From NCBI RefSeq assembly GCF_036373705.1, contig NC_089863.1, positions 3,580,444-3,644,443 on the forward strand: a stretch of DNA of 64,000 nucleotides, in the 5' to 3' direction. The position numbers and the translations under genes are program-made. A model generated the notes under the pieces. It ran no database searches, was not told the origin of the DNA, and was given only the letters and a program-made list of their open reading frames with translations. The DNA is from Amia ocellicauda (taxonomy: Eukaryota > Chordata > Actinopteri > Amiiformes > Amiidae). Below, one piece after another: positions 27,142 to 54,824 of the stretch. Positions within the stretch are counted from its first letter, which is position 1. Each line of letters opens with the position of its first letter.

Positions 27142-30100
27142 TCACACTTTCTTGGGCGTGTAGACGGGCGGCAGCACACGCCGGGAGTTGGCCTTGACCC
27201 AGGGGTGGTCCTGGACGCTGCGCAGGGGCAGCCGCATGGCGGGGTTGTGCCGGAGCAGCTTGGAGATGAGGTCACGCGCCCCGTCCGACACCACCTTGGG
27301 GAACTGCAGGTCCACCTGGACGAGGAGACGGCGGAACAGGCGCGTGAGACACAGGTCCTTCTCTTGGCTTGTTGGCGGTTGATTTTAATCAACCGCCAAC
27401 TAGCCAAGAGAAGCATCTGTGGTGCCTCCAGAGGCTAAAAACGGGAGGATGGGGACACTAAGACAAACCGAGGACAGAGGGACGGCGTACCTTGGTGATC
27501 CTCTTGTAGGTGTCTGAGTGGCTGGACGTCTCGAAGGGGGGGTTCCCTACCAGGCACTCGTAGCACAGCACCCCGATGCACCACAGGTCCACCTTCTCAT
27601 CGTGCGTGCGCCCCTCGATCATCTCCGGGGGCAGGTAGTCCAGCGTGCCGCACATGGTCCGCCGCCTGGTGGGGGGGGGAGGGTTTATTTATTTAAGTTG
27701 GGGCACAAAAGCCGGAGACTTGCCATCTGAGGGGGGACGGGGACGACACGGACGGACCTGAGGGAGGGCGCGTGGACGGACCAGCCGAAGTCGGCGATCT
27801 TCAGCTCGCCCCGGAAGCCCAGCAGCAGGTTCTCGGGCTTGATGTCGCGGTGGATGACCTTGCGCTCGTGGCAGTACAGCAGCGCGTCCGCCAGCTCCTC
27901 CATGTACTGAGGGCAGAGGAGAACAGAGCTTTAGAGCACGGGCGGAGACAGGTTGACACAAAAACTAAATAAAGAGCCTGGTCGAATTGCCCCCTGCCCC
28001 TCACCGTGGCGGTGCGCTGGTCGTCGAAGCGGCCGCAGCGCTGCAACTGCTTGTACATCTCTCCCTGGGGGGCGTACTCCAGCACCAGATAGACACGCGT
28101 GCGGTCGTGGAAGTACTGGTAGAAGCGCAGGATGTTGGGGTGCCTGGGAGGGGGAATGGAGGGAGCATTAGGGTCCGCCGACGGGCGAGGAAGACTCGTA
28201 TCACTGACAGCGCCCTCCGCTACAACACAGCCACGCATCCCGTCTGGCCCGTGGCCCCCCCGACGCACCTGAGGTGGGACTGGATCTCGATCTCCCGGCG
28301 CAGCTGGTGCTCCACGCCCTCCTTCTCGATCTGCGACTTGAACAGCACCTTCAGCGCCACGATGAACTTGAGCTTGCGCTCGCGGGCCAGGTACACGTTG
28401 CCGAACTTGCCCTTGCCTAGCGGCCGGCCGATGTCGAAGTCGTTGATGCAGAAGCGCTTCCGGCTGCGGGGAAGGGGAGGGGGAGAGATGGAGAGAGTCA
28501 AAAAAAAGGGTTAAAGACTGCGTTTGGGTCATCAGTTAATGAAAAACCACGGCTGGAGACTAATTCGTTACCCACTGGCTAATGGTGGATCTGCTCACCT
28601 GGGTGGAGGGCAAGCGCTGCGATAGCTGGCCACCGCTGCCACTCTGCTCGGGCCTGAGAGAGAGAAAGACGGTGAGCACTGCACAAAGGAGAAGTTAAAG
28701 AAGACCACTCCATACCTCTCCTCTATTCCCAAAGAGACGGACGAACCTACCCGTCACTGTGTGGCAGTCACCGTTCTCCACAGCCGGGTTCCTCGGCACG
28801 CGCTGTGGCCCCATCGTCCCCAGGGGCGTGGTGAACTGGGCAGGACAGAGAGATGGTTGGATTAAACACTTTATACCCCCAGGATCACAACCCTTTCACT
28901 CCACCAGACGTCACGCATGGTTGCACCTTGAGATCTGACTGCATGTCTTAAAGCGTACCGATTGTAAAGCACAGGTTAGGGTTAGTTCCCCCCCCTCTGT
29001 ACAGATTGCCATAGTTTATCTGGGCTCTTACATCCGTTCAGGCCTACGGTACGTGCCTTTCACCCCCATATCCCTCAGTTTTTCAAAACATGCTTCTGTG
29101 AAATTGGGCATCATTTAAGACATGCAAACTAAAGAAAAAAGCTACATGAAAGGGCTTCCTCTGGGAAATTAAATTGAAATCAGGGCACAAATTAAAAATG
29201 GCTCGGGGCCCAACAGCACTGCGGCCCGGTCCCTGTGGGTGACCCACAATGCCTAAATCTAGAACAGCAGAGATGGACTATCCACCCACAGGCTGGCTGA
29301 TCTGCAGCTCCTTCAGTGACTGTTACGCAATCATTTGATAATCCACCACCTCTAACTGGCAGCAGGGAAACCGAGGCGTCGATAAATGGGCAATAGTGTA
29401 AAACCATCACTTCTACACCTTATACCCCCCACCACAGACTGGGACTCTGCACGCTGGGATGCACCGGGTTGTATCGTGCAACGATTGCAACGCCGCACTT
29501 TGGGATGCGTCGCCTGCCAGGACAGCAATAATAAAAGGCATCGGCCTACCTGTGGTCTAACTGGTTTAGGATCCAGATTCTCTTTATCGTTTGTCTGTGC
29601 GGTCTGGAAACAATTAAAAACAGGAATACATTCAAGTTAAAAAGGTACCCTTTTTAGGCATTGCCAACAGGAGTCCCGTGACAAAAAACCCATGTGTGCC
29701 TCACATTTGCCAATCCTTACCTCTGAGATGTCACTTCTTTCGTTGGAATGTGTTTTGTGCAATTCCACTAAAAGACACATTAATCTTTACTAACCCAAAC
29801 GCGTCATTTGAGCTCTATTCTGCAATGCACTCATATCAGGACCAGTTCAACTGCAGAACAGAAACCGAAGTAAACAACTGTAGAAGTACATTTGGACATG
29901 TTTTTTATGTAGCCTATTAGCAGCTAGTTAGTGTGCAAAGCAGGGATTTCGGCACTTTTAGTTCAGGAGTGTGAACATCTGCTGAAGACAACAGGGGCAG
30001 CTCAAAAGGGGCCGGATTTATTTCTGCAAGGCGTTTTTCCTGTGTGCAGGGGTCTGAAGCTCCTGGGATTATGTTAGACGGCTGTGGTAGTTTCTCCCAG

Positions 30101-30875: not shown

Positions 30876-31658
30876 TATACTGCGCAAAAGAAGCGTCGTC
30901 TCATTTTCAGCAGACTTTATGCGTAAATATTTGTATGCACATAAAAAGATTCAACTACTAAGACAAACTGAACAAGTTTCACAGACATGTGACCAACAGA
31001 AATTGAATAATGTGTCCCTGAACAAAGGGGGGGTCAAAATCAAAAGTAACAGTCAGTATCTGGTGAAGTGCATCTCCTCCTCATGGACGGCACCAGATGT
31101 GCCAGTTCTTACTGTGAGATGTTACCCCACTCTTCCACCAAGGCACTTGCAAGTTCCTGGACATTTCTGGGGGGAATGGCCCTAGCCCCCACCCTCCGAT
31201 CCAACAGGTCCCAGACGTTCTCAATGGGATTGAGATCCGGGCTCTTCCCTGGCCGTGGCAGACACTGACATTCCTGTCTTGCAGGAAATCAAGTCCAGTG
31301 AAGGTGTGTTTGTGCCCATAGGCGACGTTTCCGTTGATGTCTGTAATGACCTGCCTTACAACAGGCCTACAAGCCTTCAGTCCAGCCTCTCTCAGCCGAT
31401 TGCGCACAGTCTGAGCACTGATGGAGGGATTGTGCGTTCCTGGTGTAACTCGGGCAGTTGTTGTTGCATCCTGTACCTGTCCCGGAGGTGTGATATTCGG
31501 ATGCACCGATCCTGTGCAGGTGTTGTTACACGTGGTCTGCCACTGCGAGGACAATCAGCTGTCCTTCCTGACTCCCTGTAGTGCTGTTAGGCGTCTCACA
31601 GTATTGACACAGTAAATAGTGTCCTGAAAAAGAGACGTTTCTTTTTTTGCTGAGTATA
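30876..31658 (-). mobile_element. Internally deleted Tc1-like transposon
   Basis: Inverted ends TATACTGCGCAAAAGAAGCG (left, 30876) and, on the other strand, TATACTCAGCAAAAAAAGAA (right, 31658). The minus-strand remnant at 31081-31554 shows the transposase N-terminal motif NPSISAQTVRNRLREAGL, then a short C-terminal piece. Most of the DDE catalytic part is missing, so it is non-autonomous. At about 780 bp it is well below the usual 1.2-1.6 kb. It separates the aurkb promoter from the tmem107 3' end. Confidence 0.85.
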
Positions 31659-32382: not shown

Positions 32383-35300
32383 TCAGAACGGCTTCTTCTT
32401 CAGCCCAAACACCGCGATGAAGAGCACCACCTCAACGAAGGCTGGCAGAGCGCTGGAGGGACACAGCAGAAGAGCAAGTGTCAGCGTCGGGGTCGGCACT
32501 CGGCAAATAAATAGTGTTTTTTCATGGTTTTGCTTGGTTTTTATTCCCCAAATGATTGGAGAAAGTGGGGAAATGAAGAGAATGAAAAACTGAAAGAAGG
32601 GAAAAAGAGAATGGACACAAACGGAAGAGGAGGAGGAAAGAGGAAAGGACAGCGGGTGATGACGCCCGCTGTGAGGGGGGGGTCCAAGCCTCCCGTTTAC
32701 CTGCAGAATCCCAGTATGAACCAGTAGGTCCAGCACTCCCAGCGCTGGAACACGAAGAAGGACAGGCAGACGGAGGCGCTGCAGTGAGCCGCCAGCGCTG
32801 GGGGAGGAGGTTAGGGAAAACACGACAGCGGCCCCGTGAGGGAGACGGGGAGGAAGGAGAGGGGATGGGGTCTGTGTGTCCGTGGGCGAGTGTGTGTGTC
32901 CGTGGGTGAGTGTGTCTCTCTCTCTGTCTGTGCGTCAGTGTGTCTCTCTGTGTCTCTGTGTGTCTCTGTGTCAGTGTGTGGCAGTAATCATGAAAAAGAC
33001 AAATATCATGATATTCCAGAAAAAGGCCAGGCCTCAGGGAAGTAGGTACCACTTCACTTTAGGAAACAGCACCATCGAACACTGCACCCACTACACATAC
33101 CTAGGCCTCACACTCAGCTCAACAGGAAGCTTCAACACGGCGGTGAAGACACTGAGAGAGAAAGCGCGCAGGGCCTTCTATGCCATAAAGAGACAAATTA
33201 GCATAAAAATACCTGTAGAAATCTGGCTAAAAATATTTGAATCCGTAATCCAGCCCATTGCTCTCTATGGCAGTGAGGTGTGGGGTCCCCTCACAGGGCA
33301 GGAGTTTGCTCAATGGGACAAACACCCAACAGAAACCCTGCATGCAGAGTTCTGCAAAAATATCCTACAGGTGCAAAGGAAAACACCGAACAACGCATGC
33401 AGGGCAGAATTAGGCCAATACCCATTATTAATCAACATACACAAAAGAGCAATTCAATTCTGGCTCCATCTAATAAACAGCGACACACACTCCTACCACC
33501 ACAAGGCCCTGCAATGCCGAGAGCTGAACCCAGAAAGGAGCCCCCTCAGCCAGCTGGTCCGCAGGCTCACTGCGCAGACACACACCAACACCGGCCAGCC
33601 TCAGGACAGCAACACACATATGCACACAATCAGAGTCAACCAAATTATAACAGCACAAAGAAAACTACATCACCCATTGGGAAACACACACACAAGCACA
33701 AAGTAAACTGCAGTGCTATCGGGCCCTACAAAGACACTACACATTGGCAGAATTCCTTAAATTAATAACGAACGAAAAACACAAAAGGATCCTGACCAAA
33801 TACATAAACATTTACGAGCAACATTTTTCCCCAAAATAGCAGATCTCTTTAAGAGATTTCCAGACCTGCCAGACTCGGAGAAAGTGCCAGTCCATCTGGG
33901 AGAGGAGACCAGCTGCATATTACTGGCAGCCCAGTATACAGCTGCCTGCCACAGCTTGAGGGACACAGTGGACACTTAGTCCACACACACAGGGGACACC
34001 CCTGGACACAGGCAATGACACCCATGCTACACCGACTTATTACTATTAATATCAATTTTATGTCTCTGACATATGGTTTAAATTGTATTAATTGAAATGA
34101 ATCAGTTAACTGTTTAACATACATATCGTGCATTTAAGTATGCAAATGTACATGTATATGTTCAAAACTGTTGTTTGTCACCATTGCTTTGGCAATACTT
34201 CTTTTTGGTCATGCCAATAAAAGCACGTTGAATTTGAATTTGAAATGTGTGTCTCTCTGTGTGTCTCTCTGTCAGTGTGTGTCTCTGTGTGTCTCTGTGT
34301 CTATGTGTCAGTGTGTCTCTCTGTGTCTGTGTGTCAGTGTGTATCTCTGTGTGTCAGTGTGCATCTCTGTGTGTCAGTGTGTATCTCTGTGTCTGTGTGT
34401 CAGTGTGTCTCTCTGTGTGTCAGTGTGCATCTCTGTGTGTCAGTGTGTATCTCTGTGTCAGTGTGTCTCTGTGTCAGTGTGTCAGTGTGTATCTCTGTGT
34501 CTGTGTGTCAGTGTGTACCTCTGTGTGTCAGTGTGTCTCTCTGTGTCAGTGTCTCTCTGTGTCTGGGAGTCAGTGTGTCTCTGTCTGTGTGTCAGTGTGT
34601 CTCTCTGTGTCAGTGAGTGTCTCTGTGTCAGTGTGTCTCTGTGTCTCTCTGTGTGTCAGTGTGCATCTCTGTGTGTCAGTGTGTATCTCTGTGTCTGTGT
34701 GTCAGTGTGTCTCTGTGTCAGTGTGTCAGTGTGTATCTCTGTGTCTGTGTGTCAGTGTGTATCTCTGTGTCTGTGTGTCAGTGTGTCAGTGTGTACCTCT
34801 GTGTGTCAGTGTGTCTCTCTGTGTCAGTGAGTGTCTCTGTGTCAGTGAGTGTCTCTGTGTCTCTCTGTGTGTCAGTGTGCATCTCTGTGTGTCAGTGTGT
34901 ATCTCTGTGTCTGTGTGTCAGTGTGTCTCTGTGTCAGTGTGTCAGTGTGTATCTCTGTGTCTGTGTGTCAGTGTGTCAGTGTGTACCTCTGTGTGTCAGT
35001 GTGTCTCTCTGTGTCAGTGTGTCTCTGTGTCAGTGTGTCTCTGTGTCTGGGAGTCAGTGTGTCTCTGTCTGTGTGTCAGTGTGTCTCTCTGTGTCAGTGT
35101 GTCTCTCTGTGTCAGTGTGTCTCTCTGTCTCTGTGTCAGTGTGTCTCTCTGTGTCAGTGAGTGTCTCTGTGTCTCTCTGTGTCAGTGTGTCTCTCTGTGT
35201 CAGTGTCAGTGTGTGTCTCTGTGTCAGTGTGTCTCTCTGTGTCAGTGTGTCTCTCTGTGTCAGTGTCAGTGTGTCTCTCTGTGTCAGTGAGTGTCTCTGT

Positions 35301-38300
35301 GTCAGTGAGTGTCTCTGTGTCTCTGTGTCAGTGTGTCTCTCTGTGTCAGTGTGTCTCTGTGTCAGTGTGTCTCTGTGTCAGCGTGTCTCTGTGTCAGCGT
35401 GTCTCTGTGTCTGGGAGTCAGTGTGTCTCTGTCTGTGTGTCTCTGTATCTCTCTGTGTCAGTGTGTCTCTCTGTGTCAGTGTCAGTGTGTGTCTCTGTGT
35501 CAGTGTGTCTCTCTGTGTCAGTGTGTCTCTCTATCTCTGTGTCAGTGTGTGTCTCTGTGTCAGTGTGTCTCTCTGTCTCTGTGTCTCTGTGTCAGTGTGT
35601 CTCTCTGTCTCTGTGTCAGTGTGTGTCTCTGTGTCAGTGTGTCTCTCTGTCTCTGTGTCAGTGTCAGTGTGTGTCTCTGTGTCAGTGTCTCTGTGTCAGT
35701 GTGTCTCTCTGTCTCTGTGTCAGTGTGTGTCTCTGTGTCAGTGTGTCTCTCTGTCTCTGTGTCAGTGTCAGTGTGTGTCTCTGTGTCAGTGTCTCTGTGT
35801 CAGTGTGTCTCTCTGTCTCTGTGTCAGTGTCAGTGTGTGTCTCTGTGTCAGTGTCTCTGTGTCAGTGTGTCTCTCTGTCTCTGTGTCAGTGTGTGTCTCT
35901 GTGTCAGTGTGTCTCTCTGTGTCAGTGTGTCTCTGTGTCTCTCTGTGTCAGTGTGTCTCTCTGTGTCAGTGTCAGTGTCTCTGTGTCAGTGTGTCTCTCT
36001 GTCTCTGTGTCAGTGTGTGTCTCTGTCTCTGTGTCAGTGTGTCTCTCTGTCTCTGTGTCAGTGTGTCTCTGTGTCAGTGTGTCTCTGTCTCTGTGTCAGT
36101 GTGTGTCTCTGTGTCAGTGTGTCTCTCTGTGTCAGTGTCAGTGTCTCTGTGTCAGTGTGTCTCTCTGTCAGTGTGTGTCTCTGTGTCAGTGTGTCTCTCT
36201 GTGTCTGTGTCAGTGTGTCTCTGTGTCAGTGTGTCTCTCTGTGTCAGTGTGTCTCTGTGTCAGTGTGTCTCTCTGTCTCTGTGTCAGTGTGTCTCTCTGT
36301 GTCTCTCTGTGTCAGTGTGTCTCTCTGTGTCAGTGTCAGTGTGTCTCTCTGTGTCAGTGTGTCTCTCTGTGTGTCTCTGTGTCAGTGTGTCTCTCTGTGT
36401 CTCTCTGTGTCAGTGTGTCTCTCTGTCTCTGTGTCAGTGTGTGTCTCTGTGTCAGTGTGTCTCTCTGTGTCAGTGTCAGTGTGTCTCTCTGTGTCAGTGT
36501 CAGTGTGTCTCTCTGTGTCAGTGTCAGTGTGTCTCTCTGTGTCAGTGTCTCTGTGTCAGTGTGTCTCTCTGTCTCTGTGTCAGTGTGTGTCTCTGTGTCA
36601 GTGTGTCTCTCTGTGTCAGTGTCAGTGTCAGTGTGTGTCTCTGTGTCAGTGTCTCTGTGTCAGTGTGTCTCTCTGTCTCTGTGTCAGTGTGTGTCTCTGT
36701 GTCAGTGTGTCTCTCTGTCTCTGTGTCAGTGTCAGTGTGTGTCTCTGTGTCAGTGTCTCTGTGTCAGTGTGTCTCTCTGTGTCTGTGTCAGTGTGTGTCT
36801 CTGTGTCAGTGTGTCTCTCTGTGTCAGTGTCAGTGTGTCTCTCTGTGTCAGTGTCAGTGTGTCTCTCTGTGTCAGTGTCTCTGTGTCAGTGTGTCTCTCT
36901 GTCTCTGTGTCAGTGTGTGTCTCTGTGTCAGTGTGTCTCTCTGTGTCAGTGTCAGTGTCAGTGTGTGTCTCTGTGTCAGTGTCTCTGTGTCAGTGTGTCT
37001 CTCTGTCTCTGTGTCAGTGTGCGTCTCTGTGTCAGTGTGTCTCTCTGTGTCAGTGTGTCTCTGTGTCACTCTGTGTCAGTGTGTCTCTCTGTGTCAGTGT
37101 GTCTGTGTCAGTGTGTCTCTCTGTCTCTGTGTCAGTGTGTGTCTCTGTGTCAGTGTGTCTCTCTGTGTCTGTGTCAGTGTGTCTCTGTGTCAGTGTGTCT
37201 CTCTGTGTCAGTGTGTCTCTCTGTGTCAGTGTGTCTCTGTGTCTCTCTGTGTCAGTGTGTCTCTCTGTGTCAGTGTGTCTCTCTGTGTCAGTGTCAGTGT
37301 CTCTGTGTCAGTGTGTCTCTCTGTCTCTGTGTCAGTGTGTGTCTCTGTGTCAGTGTGTCTCTCTGTGTCAGTGTCAGTGTGTCTCTGTGTCAGTGTGTCT
37401 CTCTGTGTCAGTGTGTCTCTCTGTGTCAGTGTGTCTCTGTCTCTGTGTCAGTGTGTGTCTCTGTGTCAGTGTGTCTCTCTGTGTCAGTGTCAGTGTCTCT
37501 GTGTCAGTGTGTCTCTCTGTCAGTGTGTGTCTCTGTGTCTCTCTGTGTCTGTGTCAGTGTGTCTCTGTGTCAGTGTGTCTCTCTGTGTCAGTGTGTCTCT
37601 CTGTGTCAGTGTGTCTCTCTGTCTCTGTGTCAGTGTGTCTCTCTGTGTCAGTGTCAGTGTGTCTCTCTGTGTCAGTGTGTCTCTCTGTGTCTCTCTGTCT
37701 CTGTGTCAGTGTGTGTCTCTGTGTCAGTGTGTGTCTCTGTGTCAGTGTGTCTCTCTGTGTCAGTGTGTCTCTCTGTCTCTGTGTCAGTGTGTGTCTCTGT
37801 GTCAGTGTGTCTCTCTGTGTCTCTCTGTGTCAGTGTGTCTCTCTGTGTCAGTGTGTGTCTCTGTGTCAGTGTGTCTCTCTGTGTCTCTGTCAGTGTGTGT
37901 CTCTGTGTCAGTGTGTCTCTCTGTGTCAGTGTGTCTCTCTGTGTCAGTGTCAGTGTGTCTCTCTGTGTCAGTGTGTCTCTGTGTCTCTCTGTGTCAGTGT
38001 GTGTCTCTGTGTCAGTGTGTCTCTCTGTGTCAGTGTGTGTCTCTCTGTCAGTGTGTGTCTCTCTGTCAGTGTGTCTCTCTGTGTCTCTCTGTGTCAGTGT
38101 GTCTCTCTGTGTCAGTGTGCCTCTGTGTCAGTGTGTCTCTCTGTGTCAGTGTGTGTCTCTGTGTCAGTGTGTGTCTCTCTGTCAGTGTGTGTCTCTCTGT
38201 CAGTGTGTCTCTCTGTGTCTCTCTGTGTCAGTGTGTCTCTCTGTGTCAGTGTGCCTCTCTGTCAGTGTGTGTCTCTGTGTCAGTGTGTCTCTCTGTGTCA

Positions 38301-39019
38301 GTGTGTGTCTCTCTGTCAGTGTGTGTCTCTCTGTCAGTGTGTCTCTCTGTGTCTCTCTGTGTCAGTGTGTCTCTCTGTGTCAGTGTGCCTCTCTGTCAGT
38401 GTGTGTCTCTGTGTCAGTGTGTCTCTCTGTGTCAGTGTGTCTCTCTGTGTCAGTGTGTGTCTCTCTGTCAGTGTGTGTCTCTCTGTCAGTGTGTCTCTCT
38501 GTGTCTCTCTGTGTCAGTGTGTCTCTCTGTGTCAGTGTGCCTCTCTGTCAGTGTGTGTCTCTGTGTCAGTGTGTGTCTCTGTTCGTCACTGACCTGCAGA
38601 AGGCGAATATCCACCAGTACAGGCTGCAGTTCCACTGCTCGAACAGGAAGAAGAGGAGGGAGACGGCGGCGCTGGCGTGGGCGGCCGTGGCTGAGTGGAG
38701 TCAGGGACTCGTAATAACGCCAGCCATGTATTTCACTACACACTTATCTCCCTCCCCCTCTCTCCTCCTCCATCCTGTTACTCTCCCCGTCTCTCATTGT
38801 ATCCTGCCTGTGATACCCTAGTGCAGTTGTCTCCACCCCTCCCTCTCCCTTCCTCTCCTCCTCTACCTCCCTCCCTCCCTCTCTCTCTCTCTCTCTCTCA
38901 ACTCCATCCCCTCTCCTCCTCTACCTCCCTCTCTCCCTCCCTCTCCTCCTCTACCACCCTCTCCCTCCCTCCCTCCACCTCCCTCTCTCGCTCCCTCCCT
39001 CTCTCCCTCCCTCCACCTA

Positions 39020-39061
<42 letters not shown>

Positions 39062-39441
39062 CACACAACACATCCTGCCCGCAGAGAGGAAGAGCAGCCA
39101 GCCACAGAGGGGTGCACAGTAGAGTCTGAGCGGTCCTCTCTGATTCAGCATCAGGGATCGCAGATTAGCTCAAAGACACTGCGCTTCACTGCACTGTTTT
39201 CATAGTAAACATACTGCATTAAACTATAGAGTACTGAACTCATATAATACAAAATGTGCTGAATGTCCTGTAACTACATAAGTTGATCGGAACTGCGGCC
39301 CCTCAAGAGCTGAGATGTGGCCCCCTGTGGTGAAGGATACAGAGGAGGCCCTGGCTGCTGTTGAACATGGACACTCCGGACAGGAAGCCAGCCAGCTCGA
39401 TGGCAAACAGGCCCAGGGTCACCGAGAGAGCGACTACCAGC

Positions 39442-39481
<40 letters not shown>

Positions 39482-39815
39482 GAGGGAAGGGAGAAGCACA
39501 AGGTCAGCTTGCCTTGAAACCCAGTATCCGGGCGCTGGGGCCCTACGGGGGCTGTACTCACTCTGTGTCGCGGCTGTTGTACTCCTCCGGTGTGGTGTCC
39601 AGGGGCAGGCAGGCCAGCACGTTGTTCTCCTGCCAATGGGAATCACAGACACTTCATCAGAAGGGGAAGGAGGAGGGAGAGGTGGAGGGGAGAAGGAGGG
39701 GAGGAGGAGGTCGGTTTGTGACTCGTACCCGGGACCAGAATATGGTGATGACGATGACCAGGTGGGCGGTGAGGGTGAGGAAGCGGGCCGGTACCAGGCT
39801 GCTCACGGCGCGCAT
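32383..39815 (-). CDS. tmem107: Transmembrane protein 107 (ciliary transition zone), with duplicated exon 4
   Basis: Small four-pass membrane protein of the MKS module of the ciliary transition zone, needed for ciliogenesis and hedgehog signalling. Coding exons in transcript order: 39729-39815, 39562-39629, 39341-39441, exon 4 as either 38594-38690 (4a) or 32701-32797 (4b), and 32383-32452. With one exon 4 the product is 140 residues, the same as human. Recognisable motifs: [16 protein letters not shown] (TM1), [12 protein letters not shown] (loop), [20 protein letters not shown] (TM2), the exon-4 TM3, and VFGLKKKPF at the C-terminus. All phases fit with either exon 4. The start has AAACATGC context; acceptor 39836 and donor 40287 suggest an upstream non-coding exon. 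The 4a-4b intron is 5796 bp and mostly minisatellite. Confidence 0.95.
32701..32797 (-). CDS. tmem107: tmem107 exon 4b (mammal-like TM3)
   Basis: 97 bp with acceptor CCCCCAG and donor gtaaac. It encodes [19 protein letters not shown] and a segment ending ILGFC. The AHCSASV.LSFF.F.RWEC.TYW pattern matches mammalian TMEM107 closely, so this is probably the ancestral copy. It lies 248 bp before the last exon. Confidence 0.93.
32870..32976. repeat. Left remnant of the GTGTCTCTCTGTGTCA minisatellite
   Basis: About 100 bp of GTGTGTCCGTGGGCGA and GTGTCTCTGTGTCAGT units, cut off abruptly where the LINE sequence begins. It is the same family as the large array that resumes at 34244. Confidence 0.8.
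32977..34243 (+). mobile_element. 5'-truncated non-LTR retrotransposon, reverse transcriptase C-terminal part
   Basis: The plus-strand frame to 33706 (in the stretch from about 32988) encodes the segment after the RT core: [81 protein letters not shown]. It then decays by frameshift (a second frame runs 33280-33765). The 3' end is GCCAATAAAAGCACG followed by TTGAATTTGAATTTGAA, a short tail repeat typical of such elements. Clade not assigned. Antisense to tmem107, inside the 4a-4b intron and inside the minisatellite. Confidence 0.85.
34244..38582. repeat. 4.3-kb minisatellite in the tmem107 4a-4b intron
   Basis: Hundreds of 12-22 bp variants built from GTGTCTCTCTGTGTCAGT, with GTGTGCATCTCTGT and GTGTGTACCTCTGT variants near the left end and GTGTGCCTCTCTGTCA near the right end. 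No unique sequence interrupts it. All three plus frames are open for more than 1100 codons because no unit contains a plus-strand stop; the predicted Cys-Val-Ser-Leu proteins have no other support. It ends 11 bp before the exon 4a donor. Confidence 0.97.
38594..38690 (-). CDS. tmem107: tmem107 exon 4a (divergent alternative TM3)
   Basis: 97 bp with acceptor CCACTCAG and donor gtcagtg. Phase is identical to 4b. The split first codon with exon 3 gives Ser; it then encodes [19 protein letters not shown] and a segment ending IFAFC. No stop, intact borders. About 18 of 32 residues match 4b by eye. It differs from the mammalian sequence more than 4b does (Ala for the Cys after AAH, Asn-Cys-Ser for Glu-Cys-Trp). 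Confidence 0.85.
38840..39060. repeat. CT/CTCC pyrimidine tract in tmem107 intron 3
   Basis: About 220 bp of CCCTCCCT and (CT)n on the plus strand (purine on the transcript strand) between exons 3 and 4a. A shorter (GA)n lies at 39448-39478 next to the exon 3 acceptor. Confidence 0.88.
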
Positions 39816-39928: not shown

Positions 39929-40286
39929 CAGAGAGGTATGAAAATGCAATCAAATACACAAGTAAACTCACTTAAATACATAACGTGTCAATATTTTAAT
40001 GTCGGCGTTTCCTTCCAACTCTGCTTTTGGCTCCTTAATGGGTCCAATTAAACAATTAACTGGATTAACTGAACATATATTTGCACATAACAGTTCTGCG
40101 ACATAGCTGTTACTACAAGTCTGCTTTGCAGTTGCTCTGTACTTTCTTGTCTAGTGTGTTTAGTAAAGTAAGCACATCAACAGGGATGACTGTGGCTCAT
40201 TAAACACAGTTACGAGTCCTAGGCCTCTCCGAGAGTGCAGACCGCGCATGTGCAGTCACAGTCCGTACAAAGAGCTCATATCTTAC

Positions 40287-40440
40287 CGTCAGGCTGCAGC
40301 AGGACCGGACGCGCGTTTAAAGTGCAGCAATCACCGCGCACTGCTGCCTCGCATTGAAAAGGCCGGCGGGATAACTTGCTAAGCTGACATTAAGACCCCA
40401 ATGCTGTTTAATTTTGTTTACACGCGTCGTGCACAGGCGC
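40287..40440 (-). other. tmem107: Candidate non-coding first exon of tmem107
   Basis: A minus-strand donor CTGACG|gtaaga at 40287/40286 can join the acceptor (CTGACAG) at 39836, which precedes the start codon by 20 bases. Directly upstream is a promoter patch with an X-box. The exon's 5' limit is a guess. Confidence 0.5.
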
Positions 40441-40515
40441 TGCCCGCTCGTTGCTACAGCAACTGCCGCACTTCTCGCGAGAGTCCTAGCCACGTTGGGG
40501 GGTGACGTCAGCGGC
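40441..40515 (-). promoter_or_regulatory. tmem107: tmem107 promoter: RFX X-box, CGCG motif and CRE
   Basis: GTTGCTACAGCAAC at 40450-40463 is a near-palindromic RFX X-box. TCTCGCGAGA at 40473-40482 is the known CpG-promoter palindrome. TGACGTCA lies at 40503-40510. RFX factors control ciliary genes, so an X-box just upstream of a transition-zone gene fits its role. Confidence 0.65.
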
Positions 40516-43010: not shown

Positions 43011-46000
43011 TCACTGGGGACAGACAAAGGACAGGAACAGGTCAACTTCGTTTTTGATGACGACAGGCTGGGGGTGGATCTGGTCCGGTGTGTAGTGGCA
43101 GGAGGTCATCTGCCAGACGTCGATGAAGGCCACAGGGAGGCCCTGGAACATCCTCCTGAGCACGGTGTCCAGCTGCAGGGACAGCCAGTCACTGCCGTAG
43201 ACGTCCTTGTAGCCGGTGTTGGCCGACTTGATGACCACGAGGGTCTGGGGGCTCCGGCGCAGCAGCGAGCGCACCGCCTCTCGGATGATGGCGACCCGGC
43301 GGACAAACGTGGCCAGTGGGAAGGTGGTGAAGTGCGCCCAGAGGTTGAAGGCCACCACGGTGTAGGCGTCTCCCGCCAGCCCGTCGATCTCGTTGGCGAT
43401 GTAGTGCAGCCGCACCCTCGGGACCTTGAGCGTGCGGATGGGCAGGCCGTGAGCTCGCCAGCGCAGGACCACATTGTTACCGGTGTCCACTGCCAGGAGA
43501 GGCCCCGACTGGCCTGAGGTGTGAAGGTTCATGAGCTTCAGAGCTGGAGGGAGGGAGGATGTTACAGTCTTTCTGAGGTAGAAGAGAGAGAGAGAGAGAC
43601 AGATGCAAGGAAGGTTCTTGCAAACTGGACAGAGAGGGAGAAGAAGTGTGAGGGAGATGAAAGAAATGGGAAGAAGCAGAGAGCGAGAGAGTCACAGGGA
43701 GGGTAAGAGTGGCGTATCGGGTGTGTTGGTGTCTCAGGCTCTTACTGGGCACAGTCGTCTGCAGGTATTCGAACCACTGGCGCAACGTGGAGTCGCCCAT
43801 CATGTACAGCTGCTTGTCCTTCAGGCAGCCGACTATCTGCTCTGCGCTGGAGAAACTGCGAGCGGAGCAGACCAGCGAGGTCCAGCGGTCCTGGAAATAG
43901 AACCCGGCCGGAACCGGAGTGTCCAAACCGGGAGCGCACTTCTGCTCCTGTCCTGGGGAGAAACACAGAGACTCAGACACAGAGAGAGGGAGCACAGAAG
44001 CAAAAACACACACAGGAGAGAGGGAGGTGGGTAGGAAGAGTCACAGTCAAGCACACACACTCACACTCACACGAAAAGCCATGCTTACTGTGTTCTTTGT
44101 CCAAGGGCAGGATGTGGATTATGGGGTCAATTCCTGATATCCCAATGTCTATTAACTTCCTGTTGGGAAGAATGAGTCTAAAGTCTAAAAACCTTCAGAA
44201 CTGAGCACAATCATGGTAATGTTCTGCTGAATTTCTCTGGGCTTCGCTTCACTTAAAATGTCATTAAGTTGTGAACTACACAGCTACACACATTATGTGA
44301 GATTTGACCTTGAGGAGAATTGACTCCTCAGGTCTCACACTGGGCATCTCCACAGAGACTCACGTGTCCAAAAGACTCTTGTCCAGGTCGGTCAGTTTTG
44401 CCTGGTAGGTCCCAGCGCTGTGGTAGACGAGGGCGTGGCAGGGCAGGGCAGCTGGTTTCTGGCAGAACCACATCTCCCCGGTCGCAGGATCCTTGTACTC
44501 ACAGCAGCAGCGTGAGCCGCTCCTCTGGGCGTTGCAGACTACAGTCTCCGATCTGCCCCCCTCCTCGAAATACCCCCGGAAGGACACCTTGTTGGGGTCG
44601 GCCTCCCTGTGCCGGAGCAGCACCTGCACAGCTTCACTGGAGTGGATCAGCCGCAGGGAGATCCGGGCCTGACCGGGCCACAGGAGGGAGAAGTGGACTG
44701 TGTAGGTCCCGTTGCAGTGATCCTGCACCGAGCCATAAGTGCTGGCTTTGAGCTTTGGGGAGTGCAGCCGAGCCTGGAAGAAGTCCCCTCCATAGCTTTT
44801 GGGTTTCCTGGAGAAATCCTTGGCGACCAGAGTGACATTCAGAGTGTCCCCCACTGTGTAACTGTCCCTCAGGTTCTCCACGTAGTAGAAGCAGTGTCTG
44901 GGGTCTGTGGTGTTGTCCAGGGAGGTGACAGGCCTGTCTGGGGACAGCCAGCGAAGAGCCTCCCTGAGAGCCTGCCACTCCTCTGGGCTGAGGTGGGTGT
45001 CGTTCGCTGCGGGAGGGGGTGGGGTCAGGGTCTGTACTGGACAGCTGTGGTTTGTGCCGGAGTGGATCTGGTCCCACTGATGTTGGGAGAGGGGGCTGGG
45101 TGGCTTTATACTAAAAGGTTGAGTTGTCTTCTTCCAACAGTACAAATATACCTTGATGGAATAAAGGAGACACAGAAGAACCATTACGCCATTACTCTAG
45201 CACTCTAGTGCTCCATCTAGCGCTCCATTACTCTAGTGCTCCATTACTCTAGCACTCTCTCTAGTGCTCCATTACTCTAGTGCTCCATTACTCTAGTGCT
45301 CCCTCTAGCGCTCCATTACTTTGGCACTCTAGTGCTCCATTACTCTAGCACTCTCTCTAGTGCTCCATTACTCTAGTGCTCCCTCTAGCGCTCCATTACT
45401 TTGGCACTCTAGTGCTCCATTACTCTAGCACTCTCTCTAGTGCTCCATTACTCTAGTGCTCCATTACTTTGGCACTCTAGCGCTCCATTACTCTAGCACT
45501 CTCTCTAGTGCTCCATTACTCTAGTGCTCCTTCTAGCGCTCCATTACTTTGGCACTCTAGTGCTCCATTACTCTAGCACTCTCTCTAGTGCTCCATTACT
45601 CTAGTGCTCCATTACTTTGGCACTCTAGCGCTCCATTACTCTAGCACTCTCTCTAGTGCTCCATTACTCTAGTGCTCCATTACTCTAGCACTCTCTCTAG
45701 TGCTCCATTACTCTAGCACTCTCTCTAGTGCTCCATTACTCTAGTGCTCCATTACTCTAGCACTCTAGTGCTCCCTCTAGCACTCCATTACTTTGGCACT
45801 CTAGCACTCCATTACTCTAGCACTCTCTCTAGTGCTCCATTACTCTTGTGCTCCATTACTCTTGTGCTCCATTACTCTTGTGCTCCATTACTCTTGTGCT
45901 CCATTACTCTTGTGCTCCATTACTCTAGTGCTCTGGTGCTCCACTACTCTGGTGCTTTAGTGTTCCATTACTCTAGCGCTCCATTACTCTAGCGCTCCAT

Positions 46001-52313: not shown

Positions 52314-54824
52314 TCACTGGGGACAGACGAAGGACAGGAACAGGTCAACTTCGTTCTTGATGACGACGCGCTGGGGGTGGATCTGGTCCGGGGTGTAGTG
52401 GCAGGAGGTCATCTGCCAGACGTCGATGAAGGCCACAGGGAGGCCCTGGAACATCCTCCTGAGCATGGTGTCCAGCTGCAGGGACAGCCAGTCACTGCCG
52501 TAGACGTCCTTGTAGCCGGTGTTGGCCGACTTAATGACCACGAGGGTCTGGGGGCTCCGGCGCAGCAGCGAGCGCACCGCCTCTCGGATAATGGCGACCC
52601 GGCGGATGAACGCGGCCAGTGGGAAGGTGGTGAAGTGCGCCCAGAGGTTGAAGCCCACCACGGTGTAGGCGTCTCCCGCCAGCCCGTCGATCTCGTTGGC
52701 GATGTAGTGCAGCCGCACCCTCGGGACCTTGAGCGTGCGGATGGGCAGGCCGTGAGCTCGCCAGCGTAGGATCACATTGTTACCGGTGTCCACTGCCAGG
52801 AGAGGCCCCGACTGGCCTGAGGTGTGAAGGTTCATGAGCTTCAGAGCTGGAGGGAGGGAGGATTTTACAGTCTTTCTGAGGTAGAAGAGAGAGAGAGAGA
52901 GACAGACAGACACAGGGAAAGGTCTTGAAAACTGGACAGATGGAGTGGAGGGAGTGAGACAAGATCAGGAGAGAGAAGGATCGAGGGAGATGAAAGAAAT
53001 AAGAAGAAGCAGGGAGAGAGAGGAGTCGCAGGGAGGGTAAGAGTGGCGTATCGGGTGTGTTGATGTCTCGGGCTCTTACTGGGCACAGTCGTCTGCAGGT
53101 ATTCAAACCACTGGCGCAACGTGGAGTCGCCCATCATGTACAGCTGCTTGTCCTTCAGGCAGCCGACTATCTGCTCTGCGCTGGAGAAACTGCGAGCGGA
53201 GCAGACCAGCGAGGTCCAGCGGTCCTGGAAATAGAACCCGGCCGGAACCGGAGTGTCCAAACCGGGAGCGCACTTCTGCTCCTGTCCTGGGGAGAAACGC
53301 AGACAGTCTCAGACACAGAGAGAGGGAGGCGGGTAAGAGCCAGAGCACAGGAGCAAAAACACACACACACACTCATACAGGTAAAGCCATACTTACTGCT
53401 TTCTGTGTCCAAGGGCAGGATGTGAATTTTGGGGTCAGTTCCTGGTATCCCAACATCAACATTAGTTAACTTCCTGTTGGAAGAATAAGTCCAAAGTTCA
53501 GTTAAAAAAAACCTTCAGAACTGAGTACAATCATGGTAATGTGCTGCTGAATTTCTCTGGGCTTCGCTTCACTTTAAAACTTCTCTTAAAATGTCATTAA
53601 GTTGTGAACTACACAGCTACACACATTATGTGAGATTTGACCTTGAGGGGAATTGACTCCTCAGGTCTCACACTGGGCATCTCCACAGAGACTCACGTGT
53701 CCAGAAGGCTCTTGTCCAGGTCGGTCAGTTTTGCCTGGTAGGTCCCAGCGCTGTGGTAGACGAGGGCGTGGCAGGGCAGGGCAGCTGGTTTCTGGCAGAA
53801 CCACATCTCCCCGGTCGCAGGATCCTTGTACTCACAGCAGCAGCGTGAGCCGCTCCTCTGGGCGTTGCAGACTACAGTCTCCGATCTGCCCCCCTCCTCA
53901 AAATACCCCCGGAAGGACACCTTGTTGGGGTCGGCCTCCCTGTGCCGGAGCAGCACCTGCACGGCTTCACTGGAGTGGATCAGCCGCAGGGAGATCCGGG
54001 CCTGACCGGGCCACAGGAGGGAGAAGTGGACTGTGTAGGTCCCGTTGCAGTGATCCTGCACCGAGCCATAAGTGCTGGCTTTGAGCTCCTGGGAGTGCAG
54101 CCGAGCCTGGAAGAAGTCCCCTCCGTAGCTTTTGGGATTCCCAGAGAAATCCCTGGCGACCAGAGTGACGTTCAGAGTGTCCCCCACTGTGTAATTGTCC
54201 CTCAGGTTCTCCACGTAGTAGAAGCAGTGTCTGGGGTCTGTGGTGTCGTTCAGGGAGGTGACAGGCCTGTCTGGGGACGGCCAGCGAAGAGCCTCCCTGA
54301 GAGCCTGCCACTCCTCTGGGCTGAGGTGGATCTGGTCCCACTGATGTTGGGAGACGGGGCTGGGTGGCCTTTTACTCTGGGGTTGAGTCCCCTCCTCCCA
54401 ACAGTACAAATACACCTTGATGGGATACAGGAGAGACAGATACTTGTGTAAAAGATACTACGCACCCCTGTGGACACTTGTGAGGAATGCCCAACAATGT
54501 CTGAATGTGTTTTCGATTGTTTGTTTCTGTTACAGTTTCCAGACACCTGGGTGTCCTTTCCTCCAAACTGTCTGCTCTGATTCACAGTAAACCAGTGCCA
54601 CAAGGCAGCATTTTCAATATATAAAACATCTTAATATGCAATCAGTAGCTTGGAATCTAATCACTTTGAGCTGAAACTGTTCAGAATAGTGTGGACGTTG
54701 TGGTGTGGGACACTGTGGCTTTGCAATGACAGGAAAGGAGACCGGAATCAATATCTTCTGAAGACATACTTACGCTCAGAATCACCAAAGATATTAAAAA
54801 ACAAGGGAGAGCTGCCTTCCTCAT
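52314..54824 (-). CDS. NXPE family protein, copy B (neurexophilin and PC-esterase domains)
   Basis: Tandem paralogue of the gene at 43011-46830. Exons in transcript order: 54774-54824, 53697-54415, 53397-53473, 53080-53286, 52314-52846; total 1587 bp, 528 residues, phases consistent. Signal peptide residues 1-17 (MRKAALPCFLISLVILS), unrelated to copy A's. The GDS nucleophile (Ser337) and Asp505/His508 are conserved. The last two exons are nearly identical to copy A, differing at only a few residues. Exon 3 is two codons longer (KLTNVDVGIPGTDPKIH) and is the most diverged shared exon; the 23-residue insert of copy A is missing. Introns 2, 3 and 4 also resemble copy A closely, pointing to recent duplication or gene conversion. 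Intron 1 is only 358 bp and has no minisatellite. Confidence 0.9.
54774..54824 (-). CDS. NXPE copy B signal-peptide exon
   Basis: Seventeen codons, ATG to donor gtaagt, with a hydrophobic core; an acceptor-like TTTTAAAACAG lies 10 bp upstream of the ATG, implying a further 5' UTR exon. Joins exon 53697-54415 in phase 0 (GTGTATTTGTACTGT after CCATCAAG). Confidence 0.75.

Follow-up and report, generated by a model that had tools for sequence, protein, structure and literature searches.

Duplicated exon 4 of tmem107 in Amia ocellicauda: a candidate mutually exclusive pair between U12-type and U2-type introns

Introduction

The closest described relatives of the locus analysed here are the JNK genes (MAPK8/9 and relatives), whose exons 6a/6b (7a/7b) are, like exon 4 of tmem107, tandem duplicated exons at a U2/U12 boundary where the classes of the splice sites aid exclusivity. 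In these genes two U2-type 3' splice sites and two U12-type 5' splice sites compete (PMC8329584, in excerpt). Exons 11/11a of TMEM87A/TMEM87B provide a second likeness: these exclusive exons are equal in length, 72 bp each in Tmem87b, and are linked to a minor intron (PMC6717393, in excerpt). Mutually exclusive homologous exons in general swap one segment of a protein, as they would in tmem107, and transmembrane proteins are enriched among them (PMC9741552, in excerpt); those human exclusive exons put down to U2/U12 incompatibility amount to five cases, or 0.79% of clusters (PMC5740500, in excerpt). A 2012 review, in the part consulted, describes alternative splicing of U12 introns as almost entirely absent, with alternative use of 3' splice sites seen but unclear in meaning (PMC3584512).

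TMEM107 proteins of other vertebrates belong to the same family as the protein studied here, and the human gene is listed among minor-intron-containing genes in a 2026 paper (PMC13216214, in excerpt), a comparison that holds at the level of the gene. A duplicated TMEM107 exon was not found in the titles or abstract openings of the open-licence literature, among the matches listed. The excerpts of three papers on minor introns (PMC6717393, PMC6865273 and PMC3564746) do not contain the word tmem107; that of PMC3564746, on twintrons, also lacks MAPK, staggered and mutually exclusive, and in the excerpt of PMC8767276 the phrase 'mutually exclusive' occurs in the references alone. Here we analyse tmem107 of Amia ocellicauda in a window of 64,000 nucleotides (contig NC_089863.1), for which an initial annotation had proposed that the gene carries two copies of exon 4, named 4a and 4b, as a mutually exclusive pair.

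Results

Organisation of the tmem107 locus

The features of the locus are collected in Table 1. The initial annotation had given tmem107 the span 32383-39441, which takes in exons 3 to 5, but the gene starts outside it, with exons 1 and 2 at 39562-39815. Its description of the two exon 4 copies was borne out base by base: they are equal in length (97 bp) and in phase, have intact splice sites, contain no stops and share 18 of 32 residues. They align without a gap, 68 of the 97 bases being common and 29 bases and 14 residues different. The T that ends exon 3 forms a Ser codon with either copy (TCC or TCG), and both copies end in AG, which the C of the last exon completes to a codon. Translation likewise gave the products that had been expected, that is, a protein of 140 residues ending in KKKPF with either copy (isoform A with 4a, isoform B with 4b) and, with 4a and 4b together, a frame-shifted protein of 156 residues whose stop, a TGA at nt 471 of 520, lies in the last exon. 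Leaving exon 4 out entirely also shifts the frame and yields 102 residues. Adjacent, homologous and equal in length and phase, with a broken product upon joint inclusion or joint skipping, the copies have the anatomical features of mutually exclusive tandem duplicated exons.

Table 1. Features of tmem107 and its surroundings, in positions of the window; branch-site scores come from a provisional weight matrix, not built from data.
Feature	Position	Strand	Remarks
NXPE-like gene or copy, second of two in tandem	52314-54457	-	
NXPE-like gene or copy, first of two in tandem	43011-45196	-	PF24536 223 bits; Neurexophilin PF06312 95 bits (first copy only examined)
X-box-like site (RFX motif) GTTGCTGTAGCAAC	40450-40463	-	upstream of tmem107; sole match to the pattern in the window; palindromic, both strands
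Likely 5'-UTR splice donor GACG/GTAAGATATG	40280-40300	-	upstream of exon 1; by eye
tmem107 exon 1 (coding part)	39729-39815	-	in-frame splice; donor CGG/GTACGA, U2 6/9
tmem107 exon 2	39562-39629	-	in-frame; donor AGA/GTGAGT, U2 7/9
tmem107 exon 3	39341-39441	-	in-frame; last base T is first base of Ser codon
U12-type 5' splice site GTATCCTT	39333-39340	-	common to both exon 4 copies; U12 8/8, U2 3/9
U12-like branch site of 4a, GTCCCTGAC	38700-38708	-	score 8.77; 10 intron nt past branch A
tmem107 exon 4a, 97 bp	38594-38690	-	U2-type donor CAG/GTCAGT; PF14995 34.8 bits by itself
Minisatellite, 4.3 kb, CA/GA-rich	34258-38582		consensus TGTGTGTCTCTGTGTCAG on +; TRF period 18, 245.7 copies; intronic, from 11 nt past the end of 4a
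Reverse-transcriptase-like remnant (LINE-type)	32980-33706	+	by eye; no Pfam match
U12-like branch site of 4b, TTCCCTAAC	32810-32818	-	score 12.18; 13 intron nt past branch A
tmem107 exon 4b, 97 bp	32701-32797	-	U2-type donor CAG/GTAAAC; PF14995 30.3 bits by itself
tmem107 last exon (exon 5)	32383-32452	-	rest of TM4, KKKPF and stop; U2-type acceptor; in-frame with either copy
Tc3-like transposase remnant	31081-31554	-	PF01498 29.6 bits, just under cut-off
Aurora-B-like (aurkb) kinase exon	27801-28535	-	by eye; PF00069 26.9 bits, below cut-off of 31.7

The peptide match between 4a and 4b scores 106 on BLOSUM62, against 26 for the next-best stop-free ungapped match of either peptide in six frames of the window, and each exon alone matches PF14995, so the likeness of the two is not due to chance. 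No third copy of exon 4 was found in the window by ungapped base or protein comparison.

Both isoforms belong to the TMEM107 family by a full-length match to PF14995 (169.5 bits for isoform A and 166.7 bits for isoform B, cut-off 26, model positions 1-122 of 123), of which 102.5 bits are left when exon 4 is masked. A search of the genome (988 Mb, 385 contigs) with PF14995 gave four matches at E <= 0.001, all in the tmem107 locus (19 of 19 candidates scored), namely exons 1-2, exon 3, 4a and 4b, the last two with the scores of Table 1. Isoform A as the query returned, at E <= 10, six rows at the tmem107 locus and three elsewhere with E of 1.2-2.35. The initial annotation had itself raised the case of 4a being copied from a separate tmem107-like gene; no such gene was found in the 988-Mb genome. 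A separate source gene or retrocopy behind 4a was accordingly discarded, both searches yielding this locus only, bar the three rows just mentioned, in a genome that is possibly incomplete.

The minisatellite and the reverse-transcriptase-like remnant between the copies could also point to an assembly artefact, or to a fragment of another gene, as the origin of the pair. We regard this as very improbable: both copies lie on one contig, in an order and on a strand consistent with exons 1-3 and 5, no other tmem107 locus was found in the 988 Mb, and copies that differ at 29 of 97 sites are not alleles.

Splice-site classes around exon 4

The donor of exon 3, which serves both copies, is of the U12 type and is one of three matches to RTATCCTT on both strands of the window, whereas the four other tmem107 donors, those of 4a and 4b among them, agree with the U2 consensus at 6-8 of 9 positions and with the U12 consensus at 2-4 of 8. 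The initial annotation does not mention this U12 class.

Each copy is preceded by a U12-like branch site. On the provisional matrix, the score of the 4a site is reached by 0.24% of the 8822 AGs and 0.6% of the 677 pyrimidine-rich YAGs in the window (both strands), and that of the 4b site by one AG in 8822 (0.011%, its own site) and one pyrimidine-rich YAG in 677 (0.15%). A simple count of consensus letters is less striking for 4a (7 of 9, with two mismatches, reached by 4.2% of AGs and 7.1% of YAGs) and gives 8 of 9 for 4b (reached by 0.5% and 0.7%, respectively). By the same matrix, the exon 2, exon 3 and exon 5 acceptors score 0.46, -4.8 and -4.4, so that no U12 branch site is seen at the last-exon acceptor. 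The 5' splice site and the branch site are the defining features of U12 introns, with an optimum branch distance of 11-13 nt (PMC3584512, in excerpt); the distance at 4b (13 nt) is within this range and that at 4a (10 nt) slightly below it. By consensus, therefore, the two introns beside each copy belong to different spliceosome classes, as they do for the exclusive exons that are ascribed to U2/U12 incompatibility.

JNK loci of the same genome served as controls; a genome search with a MAPK8 segment gave 23 matches, mostly other kinases, and three stretches were read. The sequence GTATCCTT stands directly after both duplicated exons at two JNK-like loci (C26 and C11) and, at the third (C8), directly after the single exon copy present in the 3 kb that were read; the C11 stretch has one extra RTATCCTT, which adjoins no exon copy. 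With the same provisional matrix, the acceptors of the exon that follows the JNK copies score 6.7, 8.45 and 2.8 at the three loci, and none of them exceeds either tmem107 branch site (8.77 and 12.18).

The site classes suggest how the choice could be made. The lone exon 3 donor, being of the U12 type, would pair properly only with a U12-type acceptor, and since there is one such acceptor at each copy, two U12-type 3' splice sites would compete for a single donor; the selected copy would then be spliced to exon 5 through a U2-type donor and a U2-type acceptor. Joining of 4a to 4b would bring together a U2 donor and a U12 acceptor, and skipping of exon 4 a U12 donor and a U2 acceptor, each a mismatched combination that would also break the frame. 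In such a competition 4a would be the nearer copy (650 nt from the donor) with the weaker branch site, and 4b the farther one (~6.5 kb) with the stronger branch site at the optimal distance. On the same logic, duplication of an exon with a U12 intron on one side and a U2 intron on the other would be enough to make the copies exclusive in one step.

This barrier may leak. The intron between 4a and 4b begins at the U2 donor of 4a and ends with the strong U12-like branch site that precedes 4b, yet the pyrimidine tract of the 4b acceptor (18 of 20 pyrimidines) is U2-like, and the branch core there is CTAAC; the major spliceosome might therefore use it, and joining of 4a to 4b would not be strictly blocked. 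JNK genes have been described with a hybrid intron that combines a U12 5' splice site with a U2 3' splice site (PMC3584512, in excerpt). Both exons could accordingly be in use with exclusivity arising mainly from frame loss or other control, the U12/U2 mismatch playing a minor part, an account that we consider unlikely given that the donor class would still be mismatched both for 4a-4b joining and for skipping, and that double inclusion stops in the last exon. Ordinary nonsense-mediated decay spares transcripts with a stop in the last exon, so the doubly included transcript would not be cleared and a truncated protein would be expected. Anatomy and the U12/U2 arrangement together argue for the mutually exclusive layout that the initial annotation had proposed.

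Constraint on exon 4a

Exon 4a could be the decaying relic of an exon duplication, 4b alone being in use, and several measurements bear on this. Over 32 codons, dN/dS between 4a and 4b is 0.36/0.50 = 0.72 (NG86) or 0.38/0.41 = 0.93 (LWL85), not clearly below 1, so purifying selection is not demonstrated by this measure; we set these ratios aside as proof of selection, and they are compatible with a relic. The protein has diverged nearly as fast as the silent sites, which fits relaxed or diversifying change after the duplication. The absence of stops in 4a had been taken as a sign of selection: 4a is indeed stop-free, but the argument is weak, as 26-27% of copies simulated with 29 random changes contain no stop, and this escape of about a quarter of copies would also suit a relic, as would the weaker branch site of 4a and the greater closeness of a provisional human sequence to 4b.

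The drift test, which took 4b and not the true ancestor as its starting point, used Pfam scores of stop-free copies with 29 and 15 random changes. All eight copies with 29 changes (128.4-142 bits for PF14995) and all ten with 15 changes (137.4-156.2 bits) fell below both isoforms; isoform A lies above isoform B and all 18 drift copies. The GC3 of 4a is 31/32, a value reached by less than 0.3% of stop-free simulated copies at each of 10, 15, 22 and 29 changes (GC3 of exons 1-3 is 76/85, and the GC of the four intron stretches measured is 46-54%). In a blastn alignment of the copies the match begins 4 bases inside the exon start and breaks off 2 bases beyond the exon end; outside simple repeats the flanking introns cannot be aligned, with 20 of 100 positions identical upstream and 22 of 100 downstream in ungapped comparison. 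Despite this, 4a has suffered no indel and has retained its acceptor, donor and U12-like branch site. At 29 changes, 4a could not be told from drift by residue identity to 4b (P 0.06-0.09) or by its mean hydropathy (P 0.07). BLOSUM similarity to 4b rejected drift only if all 29 changes are placed on 4a (P 0.003-0.005), not at 22, 15 or 10 changes (P 0.17, 0.84 and 1.0, respectively). In most tests, then, 4a behaves as a constrained coding exon would and does not look like a relic, which we consider an unlikely explanation of the pair.

The provisional human TMEM107 sequence agrees with 4b at 23 of 32 residues and with 4a at 19, and contains 17 of the 18 residues that the two copies have in common. 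The statement that 4b matches mammals while 4a is diverged holds to this extent, but PF14995 slightly favours isoform A over isoform B (169.5 vs 166.7). This small advantage, found also for exon 4a alone, and the proximal position of 4a might suggest that in this lineage 4a does the work and 4b is redundant; with 4b intact, closer to the provisional human sequence and provided with the stronger U12-like branch site at the optimal distance, such a reversal of roles seems highly unlikely. The reading in which both copies serve remains the preferred one.

Differences between the two isoforms

Exon 4 corresponds to residues 86-117, which by simple hydropathy comprise TM3, the loop that links it to TM4 and the first part of TM4; the earlier description of exon 4 as encoding TM3 is therefore right as far as TM3 is concerned but leaves out the loop and the start of TM4. 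The proposal that the isoforms would present different TM3 faces was not upheld, since in a comparison of low power the 14 differences are not clustered on a helix face (P 0.35 for the first 20 residues and 0.19 for all 32). Isoform A also carries, in the loop and near the membrane, an N-C-S sequon (residue 106), a putative glycosylation site that isoform B lacks.

Surroundings of the gene

RFX sites mark ciliary promoters. The X-box-like motif upstream of tmem107 is, from the sequence, the only hint in the window on a ciliary transition-zone role of the gene, and the likely 5'-UTR donor suggests a non-coding first exon near this motif.

The minisatellite, whose length may vary between individuals, is dense in CACA (479 in 4294 nt) and might offer a platform for hnRNP L; no TGCATG regulator motif occurs in the four stretches of intron that were searched. 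The reverse-transcriptase-like remnant lies antisense to tmem107, and the Tc3-like remnant lies beyond the last exon. The Aurora-B-like kinase exon adjoins tmem107, and AURKB neighbours TMEM107 in mammals. Human TMEM107 also has the U8/SNORD118 snoRNA as a neighbour; a scan of the window against Rfam gave 0 matches at gathering score, and so no snoRNA of this type was seen there.

Discussion

Our analysis points to tmem107 producing two 140-residue proteins through the choice of one of two duplicated copies of exon 4, with exclusivity largely built into the types of the splice sites, a reading to which we assign a probability of about 0.72. The sequence anatomy, the consensus classes of the splice sites, the frame arithmetic, the single locus and the family fit of both exons are direct observations; inferences drawn from them concern whether both copies are actually used, how strongly the mismatch would act as a barrier, how the choice is regulated and how the two proteins might differ in function. 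More tentatively, and with somewhat less than even confidence, we propose that the choice between two minor-spliceosome acceptors decides which of two forms of a transition-zone protein is made, a mirror image of the JNK arrangement in which selection of the U12 3' splice site would set the isoform. If so, the activity of the minor spliceosome could tune the ciliary gate in some tissues, and it becomes testable whether one small protein varies the composition of the transition zone among ciliated tissues. The competition between two U12 acceptors would likewise be open to test.

Among known systems, the JNK-type arrangement of two U2 acceptors and two U12 donors is not what is found in tmem107. 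MAPK8/9 and TMEM87A/B follow a related logic of exclusivity in the opposite order (PMC8329584, in excerpt). TMEM87A/TMEM87B differ from tmem107 in having the JNK order (U2 upstream and U12 downstream; PMC8329584, in excerpt), in encoding an unrelated protein and in the kind of evidence, which consists of RNA reads and RT-PCR there and of sequence here (PMC6717393, in excerpt). With one U12 donor, two U12-like acceptors and two U2 donors, tmem107 mirrors JNK in its predicted splice-site layout. If the arrangement is real, it would illustrate the rule that duplication of an exon flanked by U12 and U2 introns gives exclusive splicing from one mutation, and a cilium gene with a mirrored layout would join the short list of exclusive exons that depend on spliceosome incompatibility.
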